From assembly GCA_039111635.1 (NCBI GenBank), contig JBCAQO010000007.1, forward strand, positions 1,736,001 to 1,800,000: a stretch of 64,000 bases of DNA, read 5' to 3'. Source of the DNA: Heterobasidion occidentale (taxonomy: Eukaryota; Basidiomycota; Agaricomycetes; Russulales; Bondarzewiaceae). The notes beneath the pieces are model-generated. The model had not been told where the DNA came from, did not search any database, and was given only the letters and a program-made list of their open reading frames with translations. Shown here piece after piece: positions 38,605 through 63,056 of this stretch (the stretch's first letter is position 1; each line of letters opens with the position of its first letter). A program made the position numbers and the translations under genes.

Positions 38605-38620
38605 CTAGAATAGACTTGTC
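38605..38620 (+). other. Family C primer-binding site, self-priming type
   Basis: CTAGAATAGACTTGTC follows the LTR end. AGAATAGACT is complementary to AGTCTATTCT, the predicted transcript start of the other family C LTR (62860-62869). In the local LTR the match is 8 nt. Confidence 0.6.
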
Positions 38621-39213
38621 TCACCCCTACCTTGTATACCACTCTTAGCTTGTTGCCACACACTCTCTCACAACCCTCGTTGGTGAAAATAATAGACCTC
38701 TATCAAAGAGCTTTACTGCACACACACTCTAAAGCAAGACCTAGGCCTTGAATACCTGCCAGGCACTAGACAAATCAACAACCACCTCTGCCAGAACAAT
38801 TGTCCTATCCAACAGCAAGGCACTCGCTGGTTCTATATGAACACCAATTGAGTAGCCCCGCCAAACTACCCAAACTGCTCTTTTAGGAACAGATGATACT
38901 TCTTCGCAGAAGACAATGGAACAGAGACAGAGTACATTTGGAATGAACAAGCCAACTCCTAGGAACCGCCACTCTAGTACAAACCAGTAATACTGGAGGA
39001 CTTGGAACTGAAAGAAGAAGTATCTGAATCTAACTCCTTGGACATTCAAACACCAATTGACACCCAAAACACCCAAGACAACACCGACATGCCGGAAACA
39101 GACACAACCCCTATTACGACAACTGTACAACCTGGAAAAGAGAAGGTCAAACTCCCTGACAATTTCACAGGCGATTAAACAGAATCACAGAAGTTCCTTC
39201 CGCAATGCCTCTT
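38621..39213 (+). pseudogene. Family C element leader and gag start, truncated
   Basis: Remnant downstream of the family C PBS. One frame near the end reads EKVKLPDNFTGD followed by a stop and SQKFLPQCLF, typical of the start of a Ty3 capsid region. It is cut by the family B LTR at 39214. Stops interrupt it throughout. Confidence 0.45.
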
Positions 39214-40888
39214 TGTTAAGAGCTGGCTCATAACACATCTTACATGATCACATGATCATATGGCATGTGGTCTATGACCAACAGATATGACCTATACCCA
39301 GTGACCGACCCTTTGACTTCACCAACAGACATCCAGTTATCTTATCTTATCTTCTACCCCTGATTGATGATCAACGGTTCCTGGTTCTTGCCCCTGCCCC
39401 AATAGTTTGTCTGTTGATTCTTCAATCATTGATTGTTTGCTTCTATTTGATCCTTCCCCATCAGATAATCTGATTGGCTGGCATTTGCCTCTTCTGTAGA
39501 TCATGCCCTAAAGTAGACTACATATATATAAAACAAGCCAGAGACCTGTCCCACTAGCTCATTCACCTTTGTTACTGAGTAACATCCTTTGTTACCTCAC
39601 TACCTGTTCTTACTCTTGACCTTTAGTACCAGCCATACCACTGCTACATCAATAAGTCTTTGCCATTAGGCCAGACCTTTGATTATCAATAGAATAACTT
39701 TTAACATTGGTTTAACTTGCACTTGTGCTTCTCTCTATTATCATCCTCAACCGCTGTTAGGACCACGTCCTAACACATGCTTTGCACGTGAGCGGATGAG
39801 CTGGTCAAGTGCTTTGAACATGATTCAGACTTGGACTATTTGCAATGACTCATTACTATTAACATGCTAACTGCATGAACACTTACTCACTGTTCCTAGT
39901 TCTTGATGTGGATAGACATTGGTTCCTGACCCTGACCCTGGTTCTTGATTGATCATGATGTGGCTAGACATTTGATATGGATGTGGACAGACATTAGTGA
40001 TCCAGTACTATACTTAGATCAATGACGCATCTTTGCTTATGGATCTCAATCATTTACTTTGGTACCTGAGAAGCGCATAGACTAGATTGCGATCCTGCCC
40101 TAGATACTTCTTTGTATATTTAGCCGAGATGAGCTTCTAAGAAGCTCAGCTTGTTCACCTGTAATATATTCGATCTCTGCACTGCACCCGGTGCCTGGCT
40201 ACCTTCCTAGCCCACACTTCATAATCTCTGTCAGATCTGAAAACTCCTTTACACGGTCTGACAAAACACTGGCCTCGTCTCCCTTCTCTTCTTACGCTCT
40301 CTTCACCCACTACTACACCGGACTTGCCGCCTTCCACGTTCTCAGTTGGACACCTCCTCGTGTCATCTGTTGGACAGGAGAAGACCATCCAGTTCTGTCT
40401 CATCATCAAGAGGACCTTGAAGATCATCTTCTCAACCTCTTCAAGGACAAAGCAGGGAGCAACCCCGAGTTTCTTCAAAGAGCACAGAGACGATCAATTG
40501 TCTTCATTCATTGGAGCCTACAGCTCTACGGCGCTGTGGAAGTTTAGCCTAGGGACCCCCTTTGTGCATCGGTGCACATGATAGGTCTCTGACCTAATAA
40601 CCGCTCAGTCTTCATATCAATTCTACACAGGACTAGCAGTATTCTATCTTGACTTTAGTAGGCAGCACATCTACTGTCATCCAGGTCCACATCAGATTGT
40701 ACCCTCGCATCCGTGGGAAGACCTTTGTGCCTGCTTAGAGTCACAGTACTATCACAAGTCTCTTGTGCATCCCAAATTACGCACTCAGTTAGCCGCTGGT
40801 GCCTTCATCAGACGCACTTGGATTTGGAATGTCCCTCAGTGACTCAGGAGCCTCCTGACACATCACGTACGAAGACCAGGTCTTAACA
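39214..40888 (+). mobile_element. Family B LTR, copy 1, interrupted by a family A solo LTR
   Basis: Starts TGTTAAGAGCTGGCTCATAA and ends AGACCAGGTCTTAACA. About 825 bp of family B sequence remain once the nested A LTR (39755-40599) and one target duplication are removed. It lacks about 80 bp present in copy 2. A PBS and gag remnant follow, so this is a 5' LTR. Confidence 0.8.
39755..40599 (+). mobile_element. Solo LTR, family A, nested in family B LTR
   Basis: 845 bp, TGTTAGGACCACGTCC...CTGACCTAATA. It is flanked by ACCGC at 39750-39754 and 40600-40604, a perfect 5-bp target duplication. Family A was therefore active after this B copy had inserted. Confidence 0.9.
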
Positions 40889-40901
40889 CTTGAACGAGCT
40901 C
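40889..40901 (+). other. Family B primer-binding site, self-priming type
   Basis: CTTGAACGAGCTC. TGAACGAGCT (40891-40900) is the exact complement of AGCTCGTTCA at 59533-59542, which lies 33 nt after TATATATA in the other family B LTR. Confidence 0.65.
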
Positions 40902-42220
40902 ACCTGCCCTTGCCTCACTCTGAATGGCCTACCTCCCCCAAATACCAAAATCATCGGTGTCATTACCTTCCATCTACATGAAGGCAATTTACACCAAACA
41001 TACACCCTCACTATCACCCTCGTAGGAGAACCACCCAAGGTCATTAGCAGTGCGCTTAACCAGATCACCAACAGTTTGTTCAGACCACTACTTCACCAAC
41101 CCCCATACCAACATTTACTTGAAAGAGACAGATATGTTGTATTCCCCGTCTCTATCTGGATCACACCCCACTACTCCAACCTTTGCCCAGCCAGCAAAGA
41201 TGAGTACGGCCAAGACCCCGGAACTGGAACCCCTGGACAAGATCCTTCAGCTGCCCAGCGTACTAGACTAACTACTGAATATCACCCAAGGAAACAGAAA
41301 CTGGGTCTAGTACATGCAAATGTTTGAGGTGATTGCCCTCCTAGCCAGAGCAGACGATCAGCTCAAGAAAACCCACTACCTAAGAGAACTCAAGAAAGAA
41401 CTCACTGTGTGAGTCCTTCAGGAAGGAGTACCAGATTGCTTTGAAGATCTAGTAACTCAAATAGGAAGGTACACAGAGTCAATGAACAAAGAGGCCTTCC
41501 AAGAAGCCTACAGACCAATCCTATCACCATACCTAGGAAGGAAAAAAAGACACGAAGGTACTGACAATTACACTTGTTTTAATTGTAGTGAACCAGGACA
41601 CTGGGCAAGGGACTGCCTAATCCGAAGGAACAAGAAGCCAAAGAAGACCCTACTAGAAATGATACAGAGAACCCCAGAATGGAACCAATATCAGGAAAGG
41701 AAGCTTGCAGAAGCTTCGGAGATTCAGCATCTCTTGGAACAGATCCCAAATGGACGCCAGCCAACACCTATTCCGACAAGCAACCGGTTCTCGCCGATCA
41801 CCCATTTGTGTGAAAAAGTCAAAGTCAAAGAAGATCCCAAACCAGCCATCTTGATCTCTTCAATCTTCCAAATCATGAAAATGGGCACACCATTACTTCA
41901 GATCGAAATAGACCTCATTGGAGCCAACAAAACAGCAAGGACCTCTGCATTAATCGACAATGGAGCAACTGGCAATTTTATCAATCGCCGGTTTATAGAG
42001 GAACATCAAGTCGTAACTATCCTCACTTAGCCCATCCCCATCAATCATGTGGGAGGAGAACCACTGTTGTTAAAGCACAACCCAAAAGTCAACTGGCATG
42101 CCTATAAGCTGCACCTCACAAGATGCCTGCCCTCCTGCCTAATACAAGGAGGACTGGTCAAGGCCAAAAGAGCCTTTAAAAAGAAGACAATATTCCTCAC
42201 CCTTGGGGAGAACAGGGTAG
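40902..42220 (+). pseudogene. Family B element gag-protease remnant
   Basis: Ty3-type Gag/protease. Gag helices read FEVIALLARADDQLKKTHYL and CFEDLVTQIGRYTESMNKEA, then a CCHC zinc knuckle CFNCSEPGHWARDC and the aspartic-protease motif ALIDNGATGNFI (the usual DSG is DNG here). After a stop the text LKHNPKVNWHAYKLHLTRC follows, with about 45 residues missing compared with the family A element. It ends at the family A LTR at 42221. Several stops make it dead. Confidence 0.8.
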
Positions 42221-43064
42221 TGTTAGGTCAGAGACCTATCACGTGCACCAATGCACGAAGGGGATCCCTAGGCTAATACGTCCACAGCGTCGTAGAGTTG
42301 GAGGCTCCAATGAATGAAGACGACCAATTGTCTTTGGGCTCTTTGAAGGAACTCGGAGTCATTCTCTGCCTTGTCCTCAAAGAGGTTAAGGAGATGATCT
42401 TCAAGGTCTTCTCGATGATGAGGAGGAATGGGCTGATCTTTTCCTGTCCAACAGATGACACGAGGAGGTGTCCAACTGAGAACGTGGAAGGCAGTGAGTC
42501 CAGTGTAGTAGTGTGTGAAGAGGGCGTAAGAAGAGAAGGGAGACGAGGCCAGTGTTTTGTCAGACCGTGTAAAGGAGTTTTCAGATCTGATAGAGATTAT
42601 GAAGTGTGGGCTAGGAAGGTAGCCAGACACCGGGTGCAGTGCAGAGATCGAATATATTACAGGTGAACAAGCTGAGCTTCTTAGAAGCTCATCTCGGCTA
42701 AATATACAAAGAAGTATCTAGGGCAGGATCGCAATCTGGTCTATGCGCTTCTCAGGTACCGAAGTAAATGATTGAGATCCATAAGCAAAGATGCGTCATT
42801 GATCTAAGTATAGTACTGGATCACTAATGTCTGTCCACATCCATATCAAATGTCTAGCCACATCATGATCAATCAGAACCAGGGTCAGGGTCAGGAACCA
42901 ATGTCTATCCACATCAAGAACTAGGAACAGTGAGTAAGTGTTCATGCAGTTAGCATGTCAATAGTAATGAGTCATGGGGAATGGTCCGAGTCTGTAGCAC
43001 ATCCGAAGCACTTGACCAGCCTATCCATTCACATGCAAAGCACGTGTTAGGACGTGGTCCTAAC
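42221..43064 (-). repeat. 3' LTR of the full-length element
   Basis: 844 bp, matching the 5' LTR at 51797-52642. Predicted start region AGCTTGTTCACC on the minus strand near 42669. Confidence 0.92.
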
Positions 43065-43079
43065 ACTACCCCCTCTCTA
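43065..43079 (-). other. Polypurine tract
   Basis: Minus strand ATAGAGAGGGGGTAG, directly abutting the TGTTAGG start of the 3' LTR, the expected plus-strand primer site. Confidence 0.8.
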
Positions 43080-44761
43080 TACAAGTCTTCGGTGTTTGGC
43101 GGGTGCACCGATGATAGGGGGGTTTCCTTGTGTGGGCCTCGTCGAAGGTGGGGATGTTGCGAGCGGGGTACCTGGTCCAGTTGGCAGTGTCGATCAGGTG
43201 GTCCAATGCCTGCTTGTGGTAACTGTATTCTTCAGCCGTCCGATCCATCTGCAGACAAAGTTGACGGGACTGCATGCGATGCCTGTCATAATCCTGAAGA
43301 AAGCCACGCGCCATAACGTCCGTTCTCTGTCTAATGCCCGTAATTGGACATCCCACGACGAGATGGCCGGCGCGTCCACATTCCCAGCAGGTACGAGTAG
43401 TGGGGTCGGCAGGTGGAGAAGGTGGGAGAGTTGGCGGGTTGGGCCAGACATTTTTGGAGTCCATTGCGTCCGCAGGCCATCCCTCGTCAGTTGCGACAGG
43501 AACGTCCGGCGACTGGGTGGAGGTTTTGTCGACAACGATAGGATGGGTGAGGTCGTCGCCGAGTAGGGGAGGGGATGGGGACACAGCAGGGGGTGACGGG
43601 GGTGGTACCGGTAGTGGCTGAAGTACCTGGCGATCCCGGACGGCCTGTTCGGGGTCGTAAGGGGGACTGGTGGGCCGCATGAACTGAGCGGTCTCTTCGT
43701 CGGTGGGTCGAAAAGTAAAAGGCTGGGCAGCCGGGAGGTTGGGAGTGGGAGCGGGTTCCGTGACGGCAGGGGGATTGATGACCATGGGTTCTTCAACGTC
43801 GATTGGGTGAAAACCTTGTTCCTGTATGTCTGGTTTGGTCATAACCCAGGGCCTAACGTTATCTTCCGGGTTACATCCGCCGGGCCAGTAGTTTGCGATG
43901 GGGTGAACTCCGTGACTATTGAGGGGGAAAGAGCGAGTCGGTAGCAATCCTTTAGGGACGTACTCCTTGATCTCCAAACGTGCTCCATTGAGTCCTATGA
44001 AACGGAACCAACGGATCGTGTTTTCCTTGTAGCGGATGCGGGTGAGCGTTTCAAGCCAAGCCAGGATGGTGTGTTGTTGGAGGAGGACAGAGCTGCTACT
44101 AAAGATCCCGCCTAGTCGGAAATTGATCATGTCGTTGTGGATAGCGGGGAGATAGATCAGCCCTTTCATGCGGTAGGAGGTGACGGTGATGTTGGCGAGG
44201 AGGATGGCCTGGTTCTGAGTGAGAGGTCCCGAGAATACTTGATAACATTGCGCCAGGACCGCGTGCTGTAAATAAAAAAGGAAGGTGCGGGGGTCTTTTA
44301 GACCCGGTTGGTTCAAGATAATGGGGGCCTCGTCCTCGGCGAGCATGAGGTGATAAATGCTGTTGTTGGTAGACAGATCTTGATAAAGGCGGAGGTCGTG
44401 GAGTGGGCTGGGTAGTGCGGGATGCGGAAGCGGGGTTCTCGTTGTGCACTACAAAAGTCAGCTGGGGGACGACAAGGTGGGGGTTCGGCATTTGAGCTGG
44501 GAAGCGGGGGATGACGAATTCTGTGAGTGGGTTGGCGACGTGGACGCCTTCTGAGGGGATGTCATCTTCGCTATCGAAATCCGAATCTGAGTCATCTACA
44601 AGCGTGGGGGTGGTAGTGGGAGGGGTGATAGTGCGGAGGATGAAGGGGTTGGGGGGGGTGTTGGAAGCATGAGGGGAGGTCGTGGTGGAAGTCATTCTGA
44701 TATTGCTGAGAATATAGCGTGGGAAGTGAGCTAAGAGGAGGTGTGCAGGAGCGAGGGACAT
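43066..44761 (-). CDS. Extra CCHC zinc-knuckle ORF downstream of pol, frameshifted
   Basis: Located between the chromodomain stop and the 3' LTR, same strand as pol. Two frames overlap. The first opens upstream (MTSTTTSPHASNTPP near 44695, then acidic DDSDSDFDSEDDIP). The second continues from about 44420 with LSTNNSIYHLMLAEDEAPI, FLFYLQHAVLAQCYQVFSG, SYRMKGLIYLPAIHNDMI, a Pro-rich linker and CWECGRAGHLVVGC, ending at 43066. A 1-nt indel near 44400-44440 would join them into a protein of about 540 residues. CCHC knuckles bind nucleic acid. The patch is GC-rich compared with the rest of the element and a TATAAAA box lies about 120 bp before the ATG. It resembles a Gag-like accessory protein; the function is unknown. 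Confidence 0.6.
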
Positions 44762-44810
44762 TCAATTGTAGCTGGGATGCTGAGGAACGTCTCTGCCTGA
44801 TGCAGGGTGT

Positions 44811-44955: not shown

Positions 44956-45819
44956 TCATAGTTGTTTGCCTGGCCATGCCAATCCTCGGTTGGTCTGCTT
45001 TTGTAGCTCCTGGTATGCTTGAGTCCGCCAATTAGAGTTGTCCAATCGTTTCTGCTGTGGCTTTGATCGAGATGAGTCTATATTGGGCTTCTTTGGTTGT
45101 GCTTCTCGATTGTTGATCGCCGGTGGTGGCACTTTTGATTGAGGAACCAGGGGCGGCTTCTTTAGCTGCGTCATTCGCTTGTTGATCTCTTCCATGATCT
45201 GGGGGATAGCCAATCCTGTAGTGAGAAGCTTCTTTCCGATTGGATGCTTCTCGAGCTTCTTTTTAATTTGATCTTCTTCAGCTACTCTGTTGAGTTCTAA
45301 TTTGATCACCAGGGCCAGAATGGAGGCTTCCATTCCTTTGACTGTCTGAGGATGCCGGTGGTAGAAGTCGTTTATGGCTTCTTGTGCGTTAGTGACGTTT
45401 GTTGCGGCTTCCCAAGAGTTGTCCAATTCTGGGTAGCCCTTCCATTTGATCAGGTACTGCAGTATCTTCCATCGCCCGAAGCGTCGAGCTCCAATGATGG
45501 CTTTGACTTCGAATTCTTCTTCTCCCTTGATCAGGTCCAGGGCCGGTTTAGGGTAGTTAGGGCCGTAGACCTTGTTCTCCTTGTAGGGCGTGAGTTGACT
45601 AGCATGGAAGACATCGTGAATGTGCTTCCAGCTGTTGGGCAGTTTCAACCTGAAGTTGACATTTCCTATGGTGTTAGTGATTTCAAATGGCCCAAAGCGT
45701 TTGGGTCTCAGTTTCTCTGATGGGTGATCGGTGTGGATGTTCTTCCCATTGAGCCATACTTGATCTCCTTTCTTGAAAGGCGGCAGGTCCGTTCCAAAAC
45801 GGTCATGCTGTATCTTCAT
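44956..45819 (-). CDS. Integrase C-terminus with chromodomain
   Basis: 288-codon frame continuing integrase. It holds the GPY/F-type module (FKKGDQVWLNGKNI, RFGPFEITNTIGNVNFRLKL, HDVFHASQLTPY) and then a chromodomain (EFEVKAIIGARRFGRW, LQYLIKWKGYPELDNSWE). Chromodomains steer chromovirus integration towards methylated-histone chromatin. A basic, Pro/Lys/Gln-rich tail ends PGKQL. The domain's aromatic and acidic positions look intact. Confidence 0.88.
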   Translation of the reverse strand: MKIQHDRFGTDLPPFKKGDQVWLNGKNIHTDHPSEKLRPKRFGPFEITNTIGNVNFRLKLPNSWKHIHDVFHASQLTPYKENKVYGPNYPKPALDLIKGEEEFEVKAIIGARRFGRWKILQYLIKWKGYPELDNSWEAATNVTNAQEAINDFYHRHPQTVKGMEASILALVIKLELNRVAEEDQIKKKLEKHPIGKKLLTTGLAIPQIMEEINKRMTQLKKPPLVPQSKVPPPAINNREAQPKKPNIDSSRSKPQQKRLDNSNWRTQAYQELQKQTNRGLAWPGKQL

Positions 45820-46500
45820 GGCTTCGGCTGCAATTTCGAGGCTGGCTTGTGCTTCCTTCCTAGCATGCTGCAGAGCTTCGAGGCGAGCATCAGCGGTGGG
45901 GACATTTGTGTTTCCGATGATGGCTGGGTAAGCCCGTGGTTGATATCCATGGAGAAGTTCAAATGGTGACTTCTGCGTGGCCGAGTGCTGATGGGTGTTG
46001 TGGGCATATTTCGCATAGGGGATTAATCCGGCCCAATCGTCTTGTGAAGAGCTGCAGAAGGCTCTGGTATTGTTCCAGTTCCTGATTCATTCGTTCAGTA
46101 GCACCGTCTGTCTGTGGATGATAAGCTGTGCTTAGAGCAGATTTGATTCCTAATTCTTTAAGCAAGGCTTGCACTACTTTTGAAGCAAATTGGGTTCCTC
46201 TGTCCGATATGATTTTATCTGGCAGTCCGTAGCGTCTCTAGGTGTTTTCTAGCAGGATCTTGGCGGTTCCGTCAGAGTCGATGGATTTCTGGCATAGGAT
46301 TATTACTGTCGTTTTGGTAAATCAGTTGGTTACTACATGTAGCGAGTCGTATCCATTTGATTCCGGTAGATCTGTAATAAAGTCCATGGTTATTGTTCCA
46401 AAAGGTCGATCTGGGATCTCTGTTAGTTGTAGGGGTACCATGGTAGGATATGTGTCATTCTTGGTGGATTGACAAATGGCGCATCCTTTTACATATTAGT
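45820..46500 (-). pseudogene. Integrase core, broken
   Basis: DDE integrase read in several pieces: YVKGCAICQSTKND (zinc-finger Cys pair), FGTITMDFITDLP (first Asp), [14 protein letters not shown] (second Asp) and [15 protein letters not shown] (Glu). Stops replace expected sense codons: TAA near 46497 (CAA expected), TGA near 46320 (CGA expected) and TAG near 46238 (TGG expected). A frame change lies near 46050. It cannot make active integrase as it stands. Confidence 0.85.
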
Positions 46501-47755
46501 GAACTGTGTTTGATATTCCTGGCCAAGTGAATTCTTGTCCTACCAAGGCTAGAGTTCCTCTTTGTCCTGGATGACCTACTGCTAGATTATCATGGTTTAA
46601 CTTGATGATATCTTGACGAAGTTGTTCGTTTCGGGAAACATATATCTTTCCTCTGTGAAGGACCAATCCTTCTTCTTCGTTCCATTCTTGTAAACCTTTC
46701 TTCATGTTTTGAGGTCCTAAGGTTTTGATCTTGGCTAGGGTTTCTAGTAGCCATTCGTCTTTCCTGTTTTCTTCAATGATTCGTTTCTGGAGGTCGTCGT
46801 CTATTATGGTAACGCCTCCTTGTCCAGTTGCCCTGATGTGCAGCATTCGGTGAGGGTCCCAACTGTCGTCTATATTGATTGCATTGATTTCTACAAAGGG
46901 TCTTCGGATCTTTTCTGTGTTATTGAAAAGTTTGGGTTCCAAGAGTGTTTTACCTGAATTGTCAAATTCCACCCCCTTTTTATAGTTTGGAGGCTGTGAC
47001 AGACCGTCGGATTTATTAGTGACTCCTGCCTTGTGCGTCAATTTGTAGTCGAAACGCGAGAGGTAAAGTGACCATTGTGCTTGCCGACGGTTTAATTTCT
47101 GGCTTGACCGGAACCATTCAAGGTTCTTGTAGTCCGTCCAGACATCTACCGGGTGGTCGGCGCCCTCCAAATAGTGTCGCCAAGCTTCAAAGGCTCGAAC
47201 AACAGCCAGCAACTCTTTATTGTAGATTGGGTAGTTGCGTTCTGTAGGTGAGAGCGACTTGGAAATATAAGCACATGGGTGCCATTTTCCATCTTCGGCG
47301 ACTTGTGATAAAACTGCTCCAGTGGCAAAGTCGGAGGCATTGCATTCGATACGGAAGGGGTTCCTTGTATCCGGCATGACAAGCACCGGAGATTCTGTAA
47401 ATATTTGTTTTAGCGTTTGAAACACTTCTTTGCATGCTGGTGTCCAATCCCAGGTGCGTTCCTTCTGTGTCAACTCAAATGGCGGTCGTGCTATTTTTGA
47501 GTAATCCTTGATAAACCTGCGATAAAAGTTGCAAAAACCTAAAAATGATTGCATTTCCTTGACTTTTCCAGGGGTTGGCCAGTCCATAATACCGGCCACT
47601 TTGATTGGGTCCATTTCCAGATGTCCATGTGATATAACATATCCAAGGTAGTCAATTTTCTTTTTATGGAAGTGGCATTTCGAGGGTTGTAGGTATAGAT
47701 CGTTGTCTTGTAAGATCCGTAAAACCTTTCGGACCGTCTTGATATGGTCATCCAT
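46496..47755 (-). CDS. RT C-terminus, RNase H and integrase zinc domain
   Basis: Open frame from just after the RT catalytic motif. RT thumb/connection: KCHFHKKKIDYLGYVISHGH, FLGFCNFYRRFIKDYS. RNase H: FRIECNASDFATGAVLSQ, YPIYNKELLAVVRAFEAWRH, VWTDYKNLEWF. Integrase zinc-binding start: LNHDNLAVGHPGQRGT. In the first RNase H motif CNASDFA stands where relatives have CDASDFA (Asp to Asn), which would remove a catalytic acid. Confidence 0.85.
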   Translation of the reverse strand: MDDHIKTVRKVLRILQDNDLYLQPSKCHFHKKKIDYLGYVISHGHLEMDPIKVAGIMDWPTPGKVKEMQSFLGFCNFYRRFIKDYSKIARPPFELTQKERTWDWTPACKEVFQTLKQIFTESPVLVMPDTRNPFRIECNASDFATGAVLSQVAEDGKWHPCAYISKSLSPTERNYPIYNKELLAVVRAFEAWRHYLEGADHPVDVWTDYKNLEWFRSSQKLNRRQAQWSLYLSRFDYKLTHKAGVTNKSDGLSQPPNYKKGVEFDNSGKTLLEPKLFNNTEKIRRPFVEINAINIDDSWDPHRMLHIRATGQGGVTIIDDDLQKRIIEENRKDEWLLETLAKIKTLGPQNMKKGLQEWNEEEGLVLHRGKIYVSRNEQLRQDIIKLNHDNLAVGHPGQRGTLALVGQEFTWPGISNTVH

Positions 47756-48359
47756 CGTTTTGGAGAACTAGGATGTCGTCCATATAGATTGCTACCAATC
47801 CGGCATAAATGAGGTCTTTGAAGAGTGCGTTCATCATAGTTTGGAATGTTGCCGGCGAGTTGGTTAATCCAAAGAACATGACCAGTAGTTCGTACATTCC
47901 TAGATTAGTGATGAACATGGCCAGTTTCTCGCTTCCTTCTTTCATGCGTATGTTGTTATATCCTGTATCGACATCCATTAGTGAAAAGTATATGGCTTTG
48001 GCTAGAAGGTCCAGTAATTCTTGAATAATCGGCAAAGGGTATTTGTTCTTGGTTGTTATTTCATTGAGTTTGCGATAATCCATTACTGGTCGTAGTTTCC
48101 CATTCTTTTTCTTGATGAAGAAGAATGGGGATGCCATGTGCGACTTGGATTCTCTGATGAATCCTTTCTGGAGGTTTTTGTCTATGAATTTCTTGAGTTC
48201 CACTTGCTCACCAGGGCTGAGACTGTATAGCTTGGGTTTGAGCGAGTGATCCATTCCTTCCTTGATTTCTATTTTGTGATCCCAAGGTCGAGAGAGCGGT
48301 AGCTGTCCTTTTGGTCGGCCTTCGAAAGCCTTCCTATAATTCCAGTATTCCCTCGGCAC
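47748..48359 (-). CDS. Reverse transcriptase N-terminal half
   Basis: RT fingers and palm: ESKSHMASPFFFIKKKNGKL, VMDYRKLNEIT, YFSLMDVDTGYNNIRM (catalytic Asp), MFFGLTNSPATFQTMMNALF, and YMDDILV (catalytic Asp pair). Right after YMDDILV two bases are missing relative to the expected text, so the frame shifts into the following ORF. This alone would prevent a full polyprotein. Confidence 0.88.
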   Translation of the reverse strand: MPREYWNYRKAFEGRPKGQLPLSRPWDHKIEIKEGMDHSLKPKLYSLSPGEQVELKKFIDKNLQKGFIRESKSHMASPFFFIKKKNGKLRPVMDYRKLNEITTKNKYPLPIIQELLDLLAKAIYFSLMDVDTGYNNIRMKEGSEKLAMFITNLGMYELLVMFFGLTNSPATFQTMMNALFKDLIYAGLVAIYMDDILVLQNDG

Positions 48360-49471
48360 TATCTCCTCGAAGGATAGTTCGGGTTTCCCTTTGGCGGCTT
48401 CTTCCGCAAGTCTTTGCGAGTTGGTGTGCTTCGTTTGTTTCCCTATCTGTGCTTTGGCAGGCTTGCTTCCTTGAGCCGGTATATTGGCATATAGAAGTTC
48501 CGTGGTTTCGGCGCGATGTATATCAACACCTTCTTCAGAGTCGTTGTATAATTCCAGTGCCTGTAATGTTCCCGTATCAAGGCATCTAATGAGATAGACT
48601 CCATCTTCTTCAAGATCCTTGGAGGAAAGTGCCGGAAGTCCATCACCGTCCTCCGGAACGTCTTCTTCAGCCCATGTCAGAACCTTGTAATTTCTGGTTC
48701 AGGCCTTCAGACGTTCGGCATTCAACCTTTGAGTTGTGAACTCCGGACTTGTAGGTATTGTCCGCAAATGTGGTACTGTGGTGTTTCCCACTTTCCGGCC
48801 TGGTACTGCTTTTCCTGGCTTTTGCACTGGTATTGAGTAGTCGCCCATTTGCGGTACTGTTTCCATGCGACATATGCTTGGTTTAGGATGTCCTGGTTTT
48901 CTTGTAGCTCTTTTGGCTTTTACCGGTCCTCCTTTTATTTGGCAGGAGGGCGGACATCTGGTAAAGTGCAGCCCGTAGGCATGCCAGTCAACTTCTGGAT
49001 TATGTTCCAATAACCAGTTGGTTCCTAAAATGACGTCCTCTTTTCCTATTTCCGCAATGTAGAATCTTGCTGATTCTGTATGCGACCCCCCCTTTTCGCC
49101 TAGAACCTGTAATTGCAGGTTGGCAAATCTTGTAATGGGTCCTCCTTTAAACTCAGTGTTTTGGACCATACTGACTGGGATAGGGGCAGGGGTTTTATGC
49201 GTGGTGATTTGATGTGCTTCTATGAAGCGAGGGTGCATGAAGATTCCGGTGGCTCCACTGTCCACCAGTGCCTGTGTAGCAGCTTTTCTATTCTTGCCTA
49301 TGAGCATTGTCTCGAGTTGGAGTGATGGTGCACCATGTGATTTCATTTCCAAAAGATACAATACATCTGGATGTCCATGCTCTTGGTCAGCGTCTTTACT
49401 GGCCAGAGGAGCGTACCAATTTCCTGCAAGAATCCTACTCTCCGCATCCGCTGCCAATGGGAGAGGCTTTA
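48360..49471 (-). pseudogene. Aspartic protease and linker of the full-length element
   Basis: Pol starts in the -1 frame relative to Gag. Protease core: LETMLIGKNRKAATQALVDS with the catalytic triad continuing SGATGIF, then FYIAEIGKEDVILGTNWLL and NPEVDWHAYGLHFTRC. A TGA at 48699-48701 interrupts the linker; the second copy has CAA at this codon (53450-53452), so a CGA was probably ancestral. The linker has acidic repeats (VPEDGDGLPALSSKDLEED) leading into RT. Confidence 0.8.
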
Positions 49472-50407
49472 AAAATTCTTCGAGTCGCTAAAGGCTCGAA
49501 CTTCCTCAATTTCTTCCATGCTGAGACCCATCATCATTTGGCGGATGTGGTTGACTCTGTTCTTTCCTTCCTCAACGTCTTCATCATCTAATTGTACTTC
49601 GTCCATTTCTCCTTTGCGCACTCCCCTGCGACAAGGAGGCTGGAATCTTCTTTTGGGTCGAGAAGGACAGTTGCGCGCCATGTGCCTGGGCTTCTTGCAA
49701 AAGAAGCACTTGCCTTCTTTGGCAAGTCGATCTCTTTCCGCCGGGGTCAGCTTCTTGAAGCGAGTGCGAATGGCATTGGCCTCCATTTCTGCTGCATCTA
49801 CATCCATAGGTTCGTATTGGGGTTCCCTATCGTGCCACGGGGGTGCCCTTTTGTCGTAAAAGGTATGCGGAGTGTAGATTTGGAATTTGCCTTTTTGGAG
49901 TTTGTATGCTCAGTCCCTTGCGATGCACATCTTTTCATGTTTCTTGGCCTTCTCAACCAGTTCCTCCCATGTTCCGTCTTTGGAAGGATCTTCATAAATT
50001 CCCTTTGCTAGCTCTCATTTGAGTCCTCGCAGGAAGTGGGTCTTCTTGGTTTCTTCATCTACGCTGGCGAGTGCCGCGAGCTGTTCAAATAGCTGAAGGT
50101 AGGTGTTGAAGGATTCTTTCCCTTGATTGACCCTGGCTAATTTGTTGCGAGCGTCCACTTCTTTATTGAACTCCTTGAAATTGGTGGCTATCTTTTTGCG
50201 AACGGATGTGAAGCCAGCCATGTCTGCCCAAGTGTAGTGGTTCCAGTCCTTTAATGTGTTCCTGGCCTGAGTAAAGTTTCTTGCCCATATCCCCGCTGAT
50301 CCTTCCTTCATATATGACAGAGCGTAGGCGATCTTGGCGAATTCGTTTGCATAATCTTTTTTCCTGGCCAGGAACATCAGGTCGATTTTGTGGAGGAACT
50401 GCTCTGT
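49472..50407 (-). pseudogene. Gag capsid/nucleocapsid of the full-length element
   Basis: Retrotransposon-gag domain with the usual helical text: TEQFLHKIDLMFLARKKDY, SAGIWARNFTQARNTLKDW, KLARVNQGKESFNTYLQLFE, ASVDEETKKTHFLRGLK. It is followed by a basic linker and the CCHC knuckle CFFCKKPRHMARNC (Lys-Pro-Arg-His in place of the more usual Gly-His). TGA stops at 50408-50410, 50015-50017 and near 49914 interrupt it. It ends FSDSKNF then TAA at 49469-49471. Confidence 0.85.
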
Positions 50408-51783
50408 TCATTTCCGGTTTCCACTAAAGGTGGTGGGTTTGGCCATAGCTGGTCCCTTGGACTCATTACCTCCAGTATCTGTCAACATTGTATCGGGCGG
50501 GGGCTCTGGATCGTTAGGTGGTTCCGGATTTCCACTTGGTGCTTCAAAATACTCCGGTTTGGGGACAAACTCCGGTGTTGGGGCTCGGAAGTCTTCTTTG
50601 GGAGTGGTTTCTTGTAAGGGGAATGTAGCGGGAGTGTTTCTTCTAGAGATTCTACTTCCACTGGCTGTTTCTCTGGGTAGAGTATGTATGTGCGGTCTTG
50701 GCAAGTCACGATGCCTATCTGCCGGTGATTCAGGCTTGTCGAAGGTCTTGCTTGCGACGTAGTCCGCGACCTTGACCAGGTGTAGTTGGGGTCCTACGTG
50801 GACGGTCTTCTCTCCCTAGGTAGGGTATTCGTATCTGCTCTCTCCTCGTTTGCGGAAGAATCCGGTGAGAGTTCCTGCATAGTAGAAGTGTCTCTTGTTC
50901 TCATCGTAATAAAGTTGGTCCTCGTCGAAGTCTTCGGGTAAGTCTCCGTAGACTTCTGCTGGGTCTGTTCTGTAGCCGGGAGGATATCCCGAGGTGATTT
51001 CATCCATTGTTTATTCTTTGAAGAAGAAGGGTACTGCCTGTCTTCTTCCAGCTTGTAATGCTTCTTGTAGGTCTGGGTCCCTTTTGATAATTTTGTTGAT
51101 GGAAATATCAATCTGGTCGAGGAGTTGGATGATTTTGGAGAATGTGTGTCCCGAGATGAAGGTTCAGAGATGATAAGTTTTGTGGGCAAACTCTCCTCTT
51201 CTGACAATAAAAATGATCCCATCAATTTCGGTTCTGACTGGCGGAGAGCTAGGGGCTTCCAGTGTGTCTTTCTAAGTGGAGGAGAAGGTCCAGTGGATGA
51301 GGACTGAGACGTGGTCTCTGTTCTCCTGAGTCTTGATGAGTTCTGCCCTGATTCCGTTTGCGTCGATATTCCTTGCGATGGTTCTTCTGAGATCAGTGAT
51401 AACGGCACTGGGGAAATCGTCTGGTCTTCCGTCGTGTATCTCAACGGTGTTCTTCGTTCTGATGACGCCGGGCTCTCCGTTGTCTGTGAGGGTGAACGGT
51501 GTCTTTGGTTCGTTGATGAAGCAAATCCCAGAAAACTGATATCCAGTTTTACTGAGGTCGATGAAGATTTTGGGTGATTGCTGCAACCTGAGTGTGGCTA
51601 CTCCTAAATAAACCTTTCCTGGGTTTCGGTGTCTTGCGACTTCTATAGTTCCTGGGTTGTTAATTCTTCCTTGAAGGGTTCCTGCTTGGTTTACCCTGGC
51701 GGCAGTTGCTAGAATGTGGTTTACTGATTGGAGAAAGAGCTGTCGCTGCTGGGGATCCAGCTTGGAATATGGTAGGGATGGAA
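50408..51783 (-). pseudogene. Gag N-terminal extension of the full-length element
   Basis: About 440 codons between the PBS and the capsid domain. Pieces: QQSPKIFIDLSKTGYQFSG, TVEIHDGRPDDFPSAVITDL, DHVSVLIHWTFSST, stop TAG at 51272-51274, IDGIIFIVRRGEFAHKTYHL, TGA, FSKIIQLLDQIDISI, VPFFFKE, TAA, GYRTDPAEVYGDLPEDFDED, FYYAGTLTGFFRKRGE, TAG, then a Pro-rich stretch (PEPPNDPEPPPDTML). No known domain. It is conserved at protein level in diverged copies, so it was coding in the ancestor. Confidence 0.7.
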
Positions 51784-51796
51784 GAGCTCGTTCAAG
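51784..51796 (-). other. Primer-binding site of the full-length element
   Basis: Minus strand CTTGAACGAGCTC next to the 5' LTR. It pairs with the predicted transcript start AGCTTGTTCA (plus coordinates 52240-52249) over 10 nt, with one G-U wobble. Confidence 0.65.
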
Positions 51797-52642
51797 TGTT
51801 AGGTCGAAGACCTATCATGTGCACTGATGCACGAAGGGGATCCCTAGGCTAATACGTCCACAGTGTCGTAGAGTCGGAGGCTCCAATGAATGAAGACGAC
51901 CAATCGTCTTTGGGCTCTTTCAAGGAACTCGGAGTCATTCTCTGCCTTGTCCTCGAGGAGGTTAAGGAGATGATCTTCGAGGTCTTCTCAATGATGAGGA
52001 GGAACGGGATGATCTTCTCCTGTCCAACAGATGACACGAGGAGGTGTCCAACTGAGAACGCGGAAGGCGGCAAGTCCAGTGTAGTAGTGGGTGAAGAGGG
52101 CGTAAGAAGAGAAGGGAGACGAGGCCAGTGTTTTGTCAGACCGTGTAAAGGAGTTTTCAGATCTGACAGAGATCACAAAGTGTGGGCTAGGAAGATAGCC
52201 AGACACCGGGTGCAGTGCAGAGATCAAATATATTACAGGTGAACAAGCTGAGCTTCTTAGAAGCTCATCTCGGCTAAATATACAAAGAATTATCTAGGGC
52301 AGGATCGCGATCTGGTCTATGCGCTTCTCAGGTACCGAAGTCAATGATTGAGATCCGTAAGCTAAGATGCGTCATCGATCTAAGTATAGTACCGGGTCAC
52401 TAATGTCTGTCCACATCCATATCAAATACCGAGGCACATCATGATCAATCAGGAACCAGGAACCGGGCCAGGAACCAAGGTCTGTCCGCATCAAGAACCA
52501 AGAATCGTAAGTAAGCGTTCATGCAGCTAGCATGTAAATAGTAATGAGTCATGGGGAACCGTCCAAGTCTGTAGCACGTCCAAAGCACTTGACCAGCCCA
52601 TCCATTCACGTGCGAAGCACATGTTAGGACGCGGTCTTAACA
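51797..52642 (-). repeat. 5' LTR of the full-length element
   Basis: 846 bp. Minus-strand TATATTTA starts at 52282 and the predicted transcript start is 33 nt downstream at 52249. Outer end GTTAGGACGCGGTCTTAACA. Confidence 0.92.
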
Positions 52643-55960: not shown

Positions 55961-57107
55961 TTGTCTAGATTGTCTACTTCCACTGGCTGTCTCTTTAGAT
56001 AGAGTATAAATGTGCGGTCTTGGTGAGTGACAATACTGATCTATTGGTGATCTAGGCTTGTCGTAGCTTTTCCTTGCAACATAGTCTGTGAGTTTAACTG
56101 AGCATAGGCTTGGTCCTGCTTGGACTGTCTTGTTGTAATAGGTGAGGATATCGGCCTTCTCCTTTCCATCTTCTGTGTAGAATCCTGTGAGGAGTCCTGC
56201 ATAGTAGAGGTGTTGGTTTTCTTTGTTGTACTGTAATTGGTCTGGGTCAATGTCTTCTGGTAGTTCTGCGAAGACTTGGGCAGGGTCTATTTTGTACTTA
56301 GATGGATATCCTTTAGAGATTGGTTCCGTAATGATTTATTCTTTGAAGAAGAAGGGTACCGCCTGTCTTCTTCCAGCTTGTAGTCCTTCTTGTAGGTCTA
56401 GGTCCCTTTTAATAATTTTGTTGATAGAAATATCATTCTGGTTAATGAGTTTGGTGATCTCAGAGAAGGTATGTCCTGAGATGAGGGTCTGGAGGTGATA
56501 AGTTTTGTCAGTGAACTCTCCTTTTTGAATGATAAAAACAATGCTGTCAATTTTAGTTCTAGTCAGTAGAGGTTCAGGTGCTTCTAGTTTGTCTTTTTAG
56601 GTAGAGGAAAATGTCCAGTGGATGAGGACTGAGTAGTGGTCTCTGTTTTCCTGGTTCTTAAAAAGATCTGCTCTGATTCCATCTCCATCAATGTTTCTTG
56701 TGATTGTTCTTCTGAGATTGGTGACAATGGCAAAGAGGGGATTGTCTGGTCTTCTGTCGTGTATCTTGATGGTGTTCTTTATTTGGATGACATTGGGCTC
56801 TCCGCTATTTATGAAAGAGAACAGTGTCTTTGGTTTGTTGACGAAGCAAATCCTGGAAAACTGGTATCCAGTTTTGTAAAGTCAATAAAGATCTCGGGAG
56901 ATCATTGTAGCCTAAATATAGCTATTCCTGAATAGATCTTTCCTGGGTTTTGGTGTCTTGCAACTTCTATTGTTCCTGGGTCACTAATTCTTCTTTAAAG
57001 GGCATCTGCTTGGTTTACCCTTACAGTGGTTGCCAAGATGTTGTTTACTGATTGGAGGAAGAGGATTCACTGCTGGGGATCCAGCTTTGAATAGGGTAGA
57101 GATGAAA
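55961..57107 (-). pseudogene. Gag N-terminal extension, second element
   Basis: Diverged copy of the extension domain with stop TAA at 56597-56599 at the same place as in the other copies, CAG in place of the TGA after TYHL, and TAA after FFFKE. Protein-level similarity is kept where the DNA has diverged. Confidence 0.65.
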
Positions 57108-57946
57108 GAGCTCATTAAAGTGTTAGGCTGGAGACCTATCACGTGCACCGCTGCATAAGGGGATCCCTAGGCTAGACCTCTACAGTGTCATAGAGCTGTA
57201 GACTCCAATAGATGAAGACAATTGATCATCTCTGAGCTCTTTGAAGGAACTTGGGGTCACTGTCCGCTTTGTCCTTGAAGAGGTTAAGGAGATGATCCTT
57301 AAGGTCTTCTTGATGATGAGAAGGAATGGGACAATCTTCTCTTGTCTAACAGATAACACAAGGGGATGTCCAACTGAGAATGCAAAAGGCAGCAAGGCCG
57401 GTATAGGAGCAGGTGAATAGAGAGAGGAGAGGGCAGGGAGATAAGTTCAGTGTGTTATCAAACCATGTAAGGAAGTCTCAGATCTGACAGAGATCATGAA
57501 GTATGGGCTAAGAAGGTAGCCAGACACTGGGTGCAGTGCAGAGATTGAGTAGTATTACAGGTGAATGAGCTAAGCTTCTTAGAAGCTCATCTTGCCTATT
57601 TATACAAAGAAGTATTTAGGGCCAGATCTGGATCTGGTCTATGCGCTTCTAAGGTACTGAAGTAAACAATCAAGATTTATCAGCAATGATGTGTCATTGA
57701 TCTGCAATGTAACTAAGTATAGTAACTGATCACTAATGTCTATCCACATCTATATCAAATGTCTAGCCACATCTTTGATCGATCAGAAACCAGGAACAGG
57801 GTCAGGAACCATAAGTAAGTGTTCATGCTTTTAGCATATCAATGGTAACAAGTCAGCAATCAGAATCTGAGTCCAAGTCATGTCCAAAGCACTTGACCAA
57901 CCCGTCAGTTCATGTGCTTTGCACGTGCTAGGATGTGGTCCTAACA
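57108..57946 (-). mobile_element. Family A LTR with PBS, second element (5' LTR)
   Basis: LTR 57121-57946 (826 bp). PBS region on the minus strand reads CTTTAATGAGCTC. The predicted transcript start here is AGCTCATTCA, so both sides have changed together at the central pair (A with T) relative to AGCTCG/CGAGCT copies. Confidence 0.8.
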
Positions 57947-59076: not shown

Positions 59077-59089
59077 AAAAAGGGGGTGG
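59077..59089 (+). other. Polypurine tract of family B
   Basis: AAAAAGGGGGTGG immediately before the TGTTAAGAGC start of the LTR. Confidence 0.7.
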
Positions 59090-60002
59090 TGTTAAGAGCT
59101 AGCTTATAACACATGATATATGATCACATGATCATATGACATGTGGCCTATGACCAATGGATATGACCTGTACCCGACGACCAACCCTTTGACTTTACTA
59201 ACAGACATTTGGTTATCTTATCTCATCTTTTACCCCTGATTGATGATTAACGGTTCCTGGTTCTTGCCCCTGTCCCAACGGTTTGTCCATTGATTCTTCA
59301 ATCATTGATTGTTTACTTTTATTTGATCCTTCCCCATCAGATATTCTAATTGGCTAGCCTTCACCTCTTCACCTTCTTATTGGCCAGACACCTTGTTCCT
59401 TGTCCCTGTTCCTAGTACCTCGCTTACCAATCTCAATTGTTTACCTTGGTACCTTAGAAGCATGGACCTTCTGTAAATCATACCCTAAAGTAGACTATGT
59501 ATATATAGAATGAGCCAGAGACCTGTCTCACCAGCTCGTTCACCTTTGTTACCTTGCTACCTATTCTTACTCTTGACCTTTGGTACTAGCCATACCTCTG
59601 CTACATCTAGGCCTTTGCCATTAGGCCAGACCTTTGATTGTCAATAGAACAACTATTAACATTGGTTTAACTTGCACTTGTGCCCCCCTCTATTATCATC
59701 CTCAACCACTCAGTTGTTGTATCAATACTGGCTACGTTCTACACAGGACTAGCAGTATTCTATCTTGACTTTAGTGGGCAGCATATCAACTGTTGCCCAG
59801 GTCTGCATCAGGTCATACCCTCACATCTGTGGGAAGACCTTTGTGCCTATTTGGAGTCATGGTACTATCACAAGTCTCTTGTGCATCCCAAATTACATGC
59901 TCAGTTAGCCGCTGGTGTCTTCATTGGACACACTTAGATTTGGCACCCCTCAGTGACTTAGAAGCCTCCTGACATATCACATGCAAAGACCAGGTCTTAA
60001 CA
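59090..60002 (+). mobile_element. Family B LTR, copy 2 (3' LTR)
   Basis: 913 bp, TGTTAAGAGCTAGC...CCAGGTCTTAACA. TATATATA at 59500-59507; predicted start AGCTCGTTCA at 59533-59542, 33 nt on. It is collinear with copy 1 apart from the nested A LTR and an 80-bp indel. The flanks of the two B LTRs do not match, so they may not be ends of one element. Confidence 0.8.
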
Positions 60003-61399
60003 GCAAGGATCATCAGGTCGATTTTGTAGAGGAATTGCTCTGTTTGTTTTCTGTTTCCATTGAAGGGGGTGGGCTTGGCCATAGCTGGTCCCTTAGAGTT
60101 AGTACCTCTAGGATTTGTCAACATTGTAGCGGATGGGGGCTCTGGATCTCTAGGTGGTTCTTGATTACCACTTGGTTCTTTAATATGCTTCAACTCGGGG
60201 CCTTAGTCCAATGTTGGGGTTCAGAAGTCTGCTTGGAGAGTGGTTTCTTGTAAGGGGGATGTAGCAGAAGTGTTTCTTCTAGATTGTCTACTTCCACTGG
60301 CTGTCTCTCTAGGTAGAGTATGTAGGTGCAGTCTTGGCAAGTTACAATACCAATTTGTCAGTAATTTAGGTTTGTTGTAGATGTTTCTTGTGACGTATTC
60401 TGCAAGTTTAACCATGCATAGGCTTGGTCCTGCTTCAATTGTCTTGTTGTGATAGGTAAGGATGGTGTATTTTTCCTCTCCGTGTTCCTTGTAGAATCCT
60501 ACAATAAACCCCCTGTAGTAGAAGTGCCATTTTCTTTGTCGTATTGTAACTGGTCTGTGTCAATGTCTTCTGGTAGTTCTGCAAAGATCTGGGCTGGGTC
60601 TGTTTTGTACCTGGGTGGATATCCATTAGAGAGTGAGTCTGTAGTGACTTATTCTTTGAAAAAGAAGAGTACCACCTGTCTTCTTCCTGCTTGTAGTCCT
60701 CTTTATAGGTCTGGGTCCCTTTTGATAATTTTGTTGATGATCTCAGAGAAGGTGTGTCCTGAGATGAGGGTCTGGAGATGATAAGTTTTGTTGGCAAACT
60801 CTCCTTTTCTAACAATAAAAACGATGCCATCAATTTTGGTTCTAGTCAGTGAAGGTTCAGGTGCTTCTAGTTTGTCTTTTTATGTGGAGGAAAATGTCCA
60901 GTGAATGAGGATTAAGTAGTGGTCTCTGTTCTCCTAATTCTTGGCAAGCTCTACTCTAATTCTGTCTCTGTCAATGTCTCTTGCAATTCTTCTTTTGAGA
61001 TCAGTGATAAGGGCAAGGGAGAAATTGTCTGGTCTTCCGTTGTGGATCTCAACGGTGTCATTTGTTCTGATGGTGTGGAGTCCTCCATTGTCTGTGATCT
61101 CGAATGGTGCCTTTGGTTTGTTGACATAGCAAATTCTGGGAAACTGGTATCCAGTTTTGCTGGTGTCAAAGAAATATTTGGGGGATAGCTGCAGCCTAAA
61201 TGTGGCTACTCCTGAATATATCTTTTCTGGGTTTTGGTGTCTTGCAACTTCTATCATTCCAAAAACAGTTGGGTTATTTATTCTTCCTTGAAGAGTGCCT
61301 GCTTGATTTACTCTTGCAGTGGTTGCTAGGATCTGGTTTACTGATTGGAGGAAAAGGAGTTGCTATTGGGGGTCCAGCTCAAATAGGGTAGGGATGGAA
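60003..61399 (-). pseudogene. Third family A-type element, gag start and extension
   Basis: Truncated at the family B LTR. The capsid start reads ENRKQTEQF-type text with CAA at 60044-60046 (TGA in two other copies). Upstream is the extension domain (TGYQFPRICYVNKPKAPFE, NTVEIHNGRPDNF, LIHWTFSST, stop TAA at 60881-60883, TYHLQTLISGHTFSEI, FFFKE, TAA). Some 25 codons around the DQIDIS region are missing. Confidence 0.7.
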
Positions 61400-62246
61400 G
61401 AGCTGGTTCAAGTGTTAGGTCGGAGACCTATCACATGCACCAATGCACGAAGGGGATCCCTAGGCTATTCTGCTACAGTGTCGTGAAGCTGTAGACTCCA
61501 ATGGATAAGACAGTGGATTGTCTTTGGGCTCTTTGAAGGAACTCAGGATTGCTGTCGGCTTTGGCCTCGAAGAGTTGGAGGAGATGGTCTTCAAGTTCTT
61601 CTCGATGATGTGAGGGAACGGGATGATCTTCTCCAGTCCAACAGATGATACTGGGAGGTGTCTAGCTGAGAACTCGGAAGGCAGCAAGTCTAGTATACAT
61701 GAGGGTGAATAGAGGGAGGATAGAGAAGGGAGATGGGTCCAGTGCATTGTCAGACCATGTAAGAGATTTCTCAGATCTGACAGAGTTTGTGAAGTGTGAG
61801 CTAGGAAGGTAGCCAGACACTGGGCGCAGTGCAAAGATTGAGTGTTATTACAGGTGAACAAGCTGAGCTTCTTAGAAGCTCATCTTGCCTATTTATACCA
61901 AGAAGTATCTAGGGCCGGATCTGGATCTGGTCCATGCACTTCTAAGGTACAAAAGTGATTGAGTAAATGATCAAGATCTATAAGCGATGATGCATCATCA
62001 ATCTGCAATGTAACTAAGTATAGTAACCAATCACTAATGTCTGTCCACATTCATATCAAATGTTCAGCCACATCTTTGATTGATCAGGAACCAGGAACAG
62101 GGTCAGGAACCATAAGTAAGTGTTCATGCATTAGCATGTCAATAGTAACAAGTCAGCAATCAGAGTCCAAGTCCAAGTTATGTCCTAAGCACTTGACCGA
62201 CCTGTCAGCTCACTTTTAAAGCACGTGTTAGGACTGTGTCCTAACA
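61400..62246 (-). mobile_element. Family A LTR with PBS, third element (5' LTR)
   Basis: LTR 61413-62246 (834 bp). PBS CTTGAACCAGCTC on the minus strand; transcript start AGCTTGTTCA, one mismatch in ten. Confidence 0.8.
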
Positions 62247-62512
62247 CAATGTAGCTAAGTATAGTACAGGGTCACTAATATCTGTCCACATCATGTCAAA
62301 TGTCTAGCCACATCTGATTGGTCAAGAACAGGAACAGGAACCAGGAACTGTTCATGCCAAGGCATGTAGATGTAAGTAGGTAAGCATTCATGTGTTAGCA
62401 TGTCAATAGTAATGAGTCAGCAATCACAGTCTGAGTCCAAGTCATGTCCAAAGCACTTGACTGACCCTCTAGCTCACATCCAAAGCACGTGTTAGGATGT
62501 GGTCCTAATATT
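62247..62512 (-). mobile_element. Family A LTR fragment (U3 part)
   Basis: Repeats the outer 265 bp of a family A LTR directly next to a complete one. The junction with the family C LTR at 62512 is abrupt. Confidence 0.7.
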
Positions 62513-63056
62513 TGGCCAGTATATTCCGATAACAAGTACAACAGATACTAGGCGGCTCCACCTGGAGCATACATCAAGGTATTTGGTAATTGTCCTTGAA
62601 GGCCAACAACCAAACAGATCACTCATCGTCAGAAGGAGATATACCAATAGGTAAAGGACATAAGGACAATGTAGCCAATGGGCTCAGGCATACAGAGATT
62701 CACATGCCATCAATATTGGGTTGGATAACATTGATGGGCACAAGAGTAGGCACTGACAGAGAGTGGTGGCCAATGGATGACTAAGAGCGGGTACTCAGAA
62801 GATTCCAGAACATATCCCTACATAGTATATAAGGCCCATAGAATAGGCTAAGGATCTTCAGTCTATTCTCTTTGTTCATCCACAGTCTTTACACTATGCA
62901 CTTTGTTTACTGGTATCTTTGTATACCAGACTCTACACGCTACCCTCGTGTATTATCTTCTGAAATACAGTTAAGACTTCTACCATTACACTCTCTAATG
63001 TGCGACCTAGGGAAGAACCCATTACTCTTGAGTTATTGAACAAGCAGTTCATAACA
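62513..63056 (+). mobile_element. Family C LTR, copy 2
   Basis: Matches 38060-38604 over its length except the first few bases. TATATAAGG at 62826; AGTCTATTCT at 62860-62869, 34 nt on; end CAGTTCATAACA. No family C internal region follows, so it is a solo or orphan LTR. Confidence 0.8.

Follow-up and report, generated by a model that had tools for sequence, protein, structure and literature searches.

The right part of a 64,000-nucleotide stretch of the Heterobasidion occidentale genome (assembly GCA_039111635.1, 45 Mb in 159 contigs; contig JBCAQO010000007.1, positions 1,736,001 to 1,800,000; hereafter the window) is occupied by a nest of long terminal repeat (LTR) retrotransposons. Our analysis indicates that families A, B and C of this nest, together with a fourth family, E, which lives elsewhere in the genome, are very probably chromovirus-type Ty3/gypsy elements that self-prime reverse transcription (probability roughly 0.86). 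Each family carries a 10-nucleotide (nt) word in its LTR, AGCTCGTTCA in A and B, AGTCTATTCT in C and AGGCTATCCA in E, and a complement of that word 2 nt past the LTR end. Self-priming of this Tf1/sushi type is known in kind.

Counting word-complement junctions across the genome gave 213 of the A/B type, 255 of the C type and 18 of the E type, while the corresponding reversed-pattern controls gave 0, 0 and 0. The signature is thus real and far above chance. The 2-nt spacer was CT in 99 of the 100 C-type junctions listed (CC in the other) and TC in all 18 E junctions. For A/B, 40 junctions were taken from the 100 listed of the 213 counted. This sample comprised 11 of the 12 listed sites lacking a CpG (the twelfth is the window site at 25151) and 29 hand-picked sites with one. 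Of these 40 junctions, 37 had a start word at the distance expected. At one of the others (L106) a C-type LTR sits within the A LTR, and at L118 and L129 the word was absent at that distance. Among the 18 E junctions, L200 was the sole case with no word.

Family E was located via the Lyophyllum protein P0074, and its pair was recovered blind. In loci L184 and L185, the word and its site were the only inverted 10-mers found by a scan that required a separation of 150 nt or more. The same scan returned nothing from L183, where the pair falls just within the excluded distance. The LTR-end pattern used on the window was too narrow for E.

All fetched loci and the window, with duplicates dropped, provided 83 pairs in which a copy's own word could be set against its own site (50 A/B, 16 C and 17 E). 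Complete Watson-Crick pairing over 10 of 10 positions was found in 56 of the 83 (A/B 28 of 50; C 11 of 16; E 17 of 17), and 72 were fully paired when G-U was allowed (A/B 44, C 11, E 17). Across these pairs, positions 3, 4, 5, 6, 8 and 10 of the word vary between families, and a complementary change in the site accompanies every difference. Because six positions change together with their partners, the comparison supports pairing across three lineages. The initial annotation had held that pairing is kept while the sequence changes, and E bears this out: its word differs from that of C at positions 3, 8 and 10, all of which are matched in the site. The duplex stops at 10 bp: A/B, C and E all have a mismatch at position 11 (by eye).

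The covariation expected of aligned copies was therefore found between families at six positions, but it did not extend within them. The A/B word and the A/B site each hold one CpG, and both decay to TG or CA. In 51 distinct A/B copies, the CpG changes were CG to TG or CA on either side, with one site reading CC. Six copies were altered on both sides: three TG/TG (paired by G-U only), one CA/CA, one TG/CC and one CA/TG. Compensated doubles were thus not in excess, as only the CA/TG copy qualified (1 of 6) and the other five were not fully Watson-Crick. The A copy at 57.1 kb, which had been offered as an instance of covariation, adds a further compensated case outside the CpG pattern; it leaves the balance unchanged and does not support covariation within A. 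We rejected within-family covariation as evidence, since CpG decay accounts for the A-family changes.

Whether selection kept the pairing is a separate matter. In the retroviral mechanism, tRNA primers get copied into plus-strand DNA. If the self-primer is copied in the same way, the word would rewrite the site in every round. Pairing does persist as the sequence changes, as the initial annotation stated, but selection on pairing would not be needed to explain it, because the site would be renewed from the word each time.

The word lies 33 (A), 33 (B) and 34 nt (C) past the first T of TATATTTA, TATATATA and TATATAAG, respectively, and 34 nt after TATTTATA in E; the A that opens it is preceded by a pyrimidine, a pyrimidine-A start context (all by eye). 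Given this distance from the TATA box (33-34 nt in A, B and C) and the pyrimidine before the A, the word probably marks where the RNA begins. The sequence itself shows the word and its site, the spacer, the TATA distance, the protein domains and the complementary changes across families; the start of transcription, the cleavage and the priming step are predicted from these. Transcription would begin at the A that opens the word; the 5' end of the RNA would then fold back, its first 10 nt pairing with the site 2 nt past the 5' LTR. Cleavage by RNase H behind nt 10 would free an RNA end that primes the minus strand through the 2-nt spacer into U5. Retroviral integrases trim terminal bases as a rule, and the 2-nt spacer may by analogy correspond to the bases so trimmed.

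The start words reported by the initial annotation for A, B and C are all present in the window, as follows.

28273..29120, plus strand: solo A LTR, start word AGCTCGTTCA at 28669-28678, no primer site behind it
59090..60002, plus strand: B 3' LTR
59533..59542, plus strand: B start word AGCTCGTTCA, in the 3' LTR
62511..63056, plus strand: C 3' LTR, 90% identical to 38071-38604
62860..62869, plus strand: C start word AGTCTATTCT, in the 3' LTR
38071..38604, plus strand: C 5' LTR, bounds from alignment to the other C LTR copy
39214..40888, plus strand: B 5' LTR, split by a solo A LTR
39754-40597: solo A LTR inside the B 5' LTR, start word AGCTTGTTCA at 40148..40157 (plus)
51797..52642, minus strand: A 5' LTR of a 10.4-kb A element
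42219..43065, minus strand: A 3' LTR of the same element
44956..49487, minus strand: A pol pieces (protease, reverse transcriptase (RT), RNase H, integrase zinc finger, SH3_Tf2-1, chromodomain)
24305..25148, plus strand: A 5' LTR of a second A element, word AGCTCATTCA at 24698-24707

Exact complements separated from the LTR end by the spacer CT were likewise found at 40891-40900 (B), 38607-38616 (C) and, on the minus strand, 51794-51785 (A). The fourth reported complement, at 25151-25160 (A), reads TGAACAAGCT, which is one base off. The pairings that the initial annotation drew within the window join different copies, and hence they are weaker than claimed; the word at 28669, for example, belongs to a solo LTR. 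An exact-match scan of the window for own-copy signatures missed all true sites, because the window copies have decayed.

The three families had also been described as unrelated, which is not the case. The RT group to which B belongs shares 78-80% identity with A (78% for the B locus L181). A and B are, by this comparison, sister families, and the window holds two lineages. The C pol shares 49-51% identity with A/B, while E, most of whose pol lies outside the fetched sequence, shares 31% with C in its Gag region. RT, RNase H and integrase follow one another in the A pieces, B and C in the order of Ty3/gypsy pol. A protease match was above the cut-off in A and weak in B. The SH3_Tf2-1 domain was found in A, B and C, and the chromodomain (PF00385) in A and C, the fetched B stretch ending upstream of that point. 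The proposal of Tf1-like self-priming therefore stands on a word at the predicted RNA start, a complement at the LTR end plus 2 nt, SH3_Tf2-1 and a chromodomain, but not on A, B and C as three independent cases. By the features covered in each family, the elements are Tf1/sushi-like in their predicted mechanism and are probable members of the Tf1/sushi group.

A third copy of the pairing sequence was noticed after the fact. All four families hold a second complement of the word between the TATA box and the start, such that the U3/R junction can fold into a hairpin. In C, the arm AGAATAGGCTGAG forms a 13-bp stem in the commonest genomic form. The B arm, GAACGAGC, is accompanied by an inner stem, and the A arm, CGAG, surrounds a strong inner stem. 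In E, the arm is GGAAGCC or GGAGAGCC, with a bulge or mismatch. The window forms in C and B folded as follows.

62840..62869, plus strand: C U3/R inverted repeat (arm, loop, word), -11.1 kcal/mol, 7 of 300 shuffles as low
59508..59541, plus strand: B U3/R hairpin (GAATGAGC arm, inner GAGA-CCTG-TCTC, GCTCGTTC of the word), -13.7 kcal/mol, reached by 0 of 300 shuffles

Shuffles matching or beating the window-form hairpins numbered 15 (A), 0 (B) and 7 (C) of 300, and for the common forms 0 (A), 1 and 1 (B) and 6 (C). Mean pairing between the word and U3 in a short context was 0.35-0.39 in A (8 copies), 0.80 in B (2), 0.99-1.00 in C (8) and 0.25-0.77 in E (9). The U3 complement appears to be new here, being strong in B and C and weaker in A and E. 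We found no mention of it in the available portions of the literature searched on such elements, which is not proof that it is unpublished. Separately, an LTR-like fragment at 32344-32353 (plus strand) carries AGCTTGTTCA behind a different upstream sequence that includes GAACGAGCT, again a near-complement of the word.

As an RNA starting at the word lacks the 5' U3, the hairpin is possible only at the RNA 3' end. It could be a lock on the 3' word, a bridge like that of Ty3, or a promoter dyad. The second and third of these are, for now, tentative possibilities: the inverted repeat would either be a dyad for a promoter factor or act as a Ty3-like U3 half of the primer-binding site, pairing with the 5' word and joining the RNA ends. 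Ty3 does possess such a U3 half (PMC5371799). The B inner stem is itself a dyad, GAGACCTGTCTC or GATACCTGTATC, and the core promoter encloses the hairpin. Nothing would oblige a factor site to track the primer word, yet in all four families the stretch upstream suits the family's own word best, which weighs against the dyad; no observation here counts against the Ty3-like bridge.

It is also possible, without being probable, that the inverted repeat arose by chance or as a by-product of template switching and has no function. Among 620 TATA-spaced control placements in the window, 3.9% reached the score of A and E (14), whereas 1.1% reached that of B (16) and none that of C (19). Shuffled words, of 20,000, attained the score in 468 (A) and 173 (E) cases, compared with 39 (B) and 24 (C), and shuffled upstream stretches did so 431 (A) and 549 (E) times. 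In E, the arm block (0.829 identity) is hardly above the LTR part (0.806). In C, the block upstream of the word reaches 0.966 and the block from -30 to +13 reaches 0.956, against 0.750 for the LTR part. Windows that beat the -30 to +13 block numbered 14 of 161 in the A LTR, 2 of 51 in C and 12 of 50 in E. A functionless repeat also accords poorly with the B inner stem, where a G-C to T-A change occurs on both sides, with 25 and 8 of the 33 distinct cores in the two states and no mixed state, although this paired change may be a single event.

Our own proposal, which we consider unlikely as matters stand, links three sequences: the start word, the primer site and the U3 arm. RNA from the 5' LTR would start at the word without the U3 arm, leaving the 5' word free for the primer site, while the 3' copy of the word would adjoin its arm and fold shut. 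The element would thereby lock itself and tell the primer copy apart by where transcription starts. Further points count against the hairpin: it was recognised only in hindsight, the E copy L183 folds poorly, and changes in the B arm are mostly CpG decay, with some of the changes breaking the pairing.

Several points weigh against self-priming itself. RNA starts were predicted from sequence alone. When each 5' LTR word was compared with its own site, none of six matched window elements paired at 10 of 10 Watson-Crick positions (by eye).

Second A element (24305), word AGCTCATTCA, site TGAACAAGCT at 25151..25160 (plus strand): 8 of 10
10.4-kb A element (full), word AGCTTGTTCA at 52240..52249 (minus strand), site TGAACGAGCT at 51785..51794 (minus strand), spacer CT: 9 plus one G-U
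B, word AGCTCATTCA at 39556..39565 (plus strand, decayed), site TGAACGAGCT at 40891..40900 (plus strand), spacer CT after 40888: 9
C, word AGTCTATTTG at 38408..38417 (plus strand, decayed), site AGAATAGACT at 38607..38616 (plus strand), CT after 38604: 8 plus one G-U
57.1-kb A-like element, word AGCTCATTCA at 57571-57562, site TTAATGAGCT at 57109..57118 (minus strand): 9
61.4-kb A-like element, word AGCTTGTTCA at 61864-61855, site TGAACCAGCT at 61401..61410 (minus strand): 9

The search patterns partly fixed both site and word, so within-family variation is visible only in part. Word-less junctions were excluded (8 in the A/B CpG tally), and pairing rates accordingly lean upwards. RNA structure offers a mixed picture. 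Each of the four families shows the primer duplex in its consensus fold. For B and E, whose consensus folds rest on 3 sequences apiece, R just past the word (TGTTA, TGTC) also pairs with the LTR end (TAACA, GACA), resembling one side duplex of the Tf1 'pretzel'. This side duplex is short elsewhere, with 4 nt in C (absent from the consensus fold) and 3 nt in A, and the second side duplex was not seen in the folds of the four families. Leader pairing probabilities of 0.92-0.97 (27 copies) were given no weight, since the folded stretch starts at the word and ends at the site and is therefore biased.

The remaining adverse points concern tRNA. Comparison with tRNA 3' ends covered 40 of 59 listed loci; ARAGORN called a gene in 32 of the 40, four without an amino acid. 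Met was absent among the typed tRNAs. The E site, TGGATAGCCT, starts with TGG and is a 10 of 10 complement of the 3' end plus CCA of one tRNA-like locus, provided that this end is read one base beyond its prediction.

G000:C15:60847-60922, minus strand: tRNA-like locus L179, 46.2 bits (low)

Read one base long and followed by CCA, the L179 3' end equals the E start word. Random sites starting with TGG match an end among the 40 loci as well as E does in 0.5-0.9% of draws. This match lowered our estimate for self-priming from about 0.88 to its present value and slightly raised that for priming by a tRNA, half-tRNA or other small RNA, with the LTR match being secondary. We nevertheless judge such priming to be quite improbable. 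The fit of E is lost at the ARAGORN-predicted end of L179, and L179 may be a decayed repeat rather than a functional tRNA, because its score is low and two more copies of it, 87-88% identical, lie on contigs C14 and C13. As the initial annotation noted, the A/B and C sites do not start with TGG, and among the 40 loci compared no tRNA 3' end fits them (best 7 of 10). Within tRNA genes, a tRNA-Gln(ttg) (L180) contains AGCTCGTT, an 8-nt run of the 10 in the A/B word, and half-tRNA primers are known in other elements (PMC6317226). The best C-word match inside a tRNA gene was 8 of 10, and a 9-nt tRNA run matches the A site at its end alone, extending into the flank. In contrast, the 10 of 10 matches sit in the LTR where the RNA is predicted to begin, and three lineages show them with three different words. 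E could depend, or once have depended, on a tRNA and still have the same word where its RNA begins; its primer may imitate a tRNA end or descend from one.

That needs of DNA or protein, such as an initiator motif together with an unrelated packaging or splicing motif, maintain the complementarity instead of priming is very improbable: the word does overlap the core promoter, and the -30 to +13 block of C is conserved as described above, but two unrelated motifs would not change complementarily at six positions nor keep the site at the LTR end plus 2 nt.

Further observations were made on the nest and its surroundings. Between 24305 and 28240, an A LTR with internal sequence lies opposite an inverted copy, with a gap of 100 N (26367-26466) between them that may be a scaffolding join of two inverted A copies. 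The LTR 5' ends at 24305 (A, TGTTAGGACCACGTCCTAACA) and 59090 (B, TGTTAAGAGCTAGCTTATAACA) are near-palindromes that repeat the element's own LTR end. No target-site duplication was seen by eye for the 10.4-kb A element. Downstream of its pol, a 460-amino-acid open reading frame (ORF) at 43066-44448 (minus strand) has a CCHC-like motif (by eye) and ends at the 3' LTR. Repeated A-family ORFs lie close to the 5' LTR at 25346-26290 (plus), 50794-51597 (minus) and 55730-56335 (minus). Neither the 460-amino-acid ORF nor these three had a Pfam match. The C 5' LTR (38071-38604) recurs at 99% identity on contigs C24, C18 and C9. Contig C24, on comparison with 59090-63056 as well, also carries both C LTRs and a B LTR at 96% identity, as in a segmental copy or second haplotype.

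Outside the nest, three neighbouring ORFs at 10957-16360 (minus strand) have matches to Rap_GAP, Tuberin and DUF3384 and, taken as one, look like an intron-containing TSC2 (tuberin) gene. An ORF at 8290-9903 (plus strand) has a GEN1_C domain (Holliday junction resolvase). Searches of the window returned 0 Rfam matches and 0 ARAGORN tRNAs.

Altogether, several hundred junctions in three lineages of one genome join the candidate self-priming elements. Natural compensatory changes at six of the ten primer positions render the pairing rule testable by sequence alone. If the lock is true, it would answer how an element avoids the identical word at its RNA 3' end, the two-copies problem of self-priming.

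Similar arrangements have been described. Tf1 and Tf2 of Schizosaccharomyces pombe share with the elements here a site past the 5' LTR complementary to the RNA start, a chromodomain and SH3_Tf2-1. The hosts of Tj1, Tosmo1-3 and Tcry1 are other fission yeasts, which belong to a different phylum from the basidiomycete host here. These elements likewise have a predicted self-primer at the RNA start and a site past the 5' LTR (PMC4600332, PMC10085805). The Tf1 duplex is 11 nt long (PMC7175516), compared with 10 nt here, and its three-duplex 'pretzel' was only partly seen here. Tcn1 of Cryptococcus neoformans and the plant Tcn1 clade are chromoviruses proposed to self-prime (PMC7175516, PMC6317226), which makes Tcn1 a basidiomycete precedent; for a Selaginella Tcn1 element, PMC2864245 reports that no primer site was found. 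The best-scoring named relatives of the C pol are tf2-like elements of Lyophyllum shimeji (55% identity over the searched region). By identity, named relatives in Dentipellis fragilis (59%) and Psilocybe (57%) come closer, and the list also includes plant, animal and unnamed proteins. In the PDB, the best sequence match of the C pol is Ty3 of Saccharomyces cerevisiae (7q5b). Ty3 is primed by a tRNA, whereas A, B and C apparently are not.

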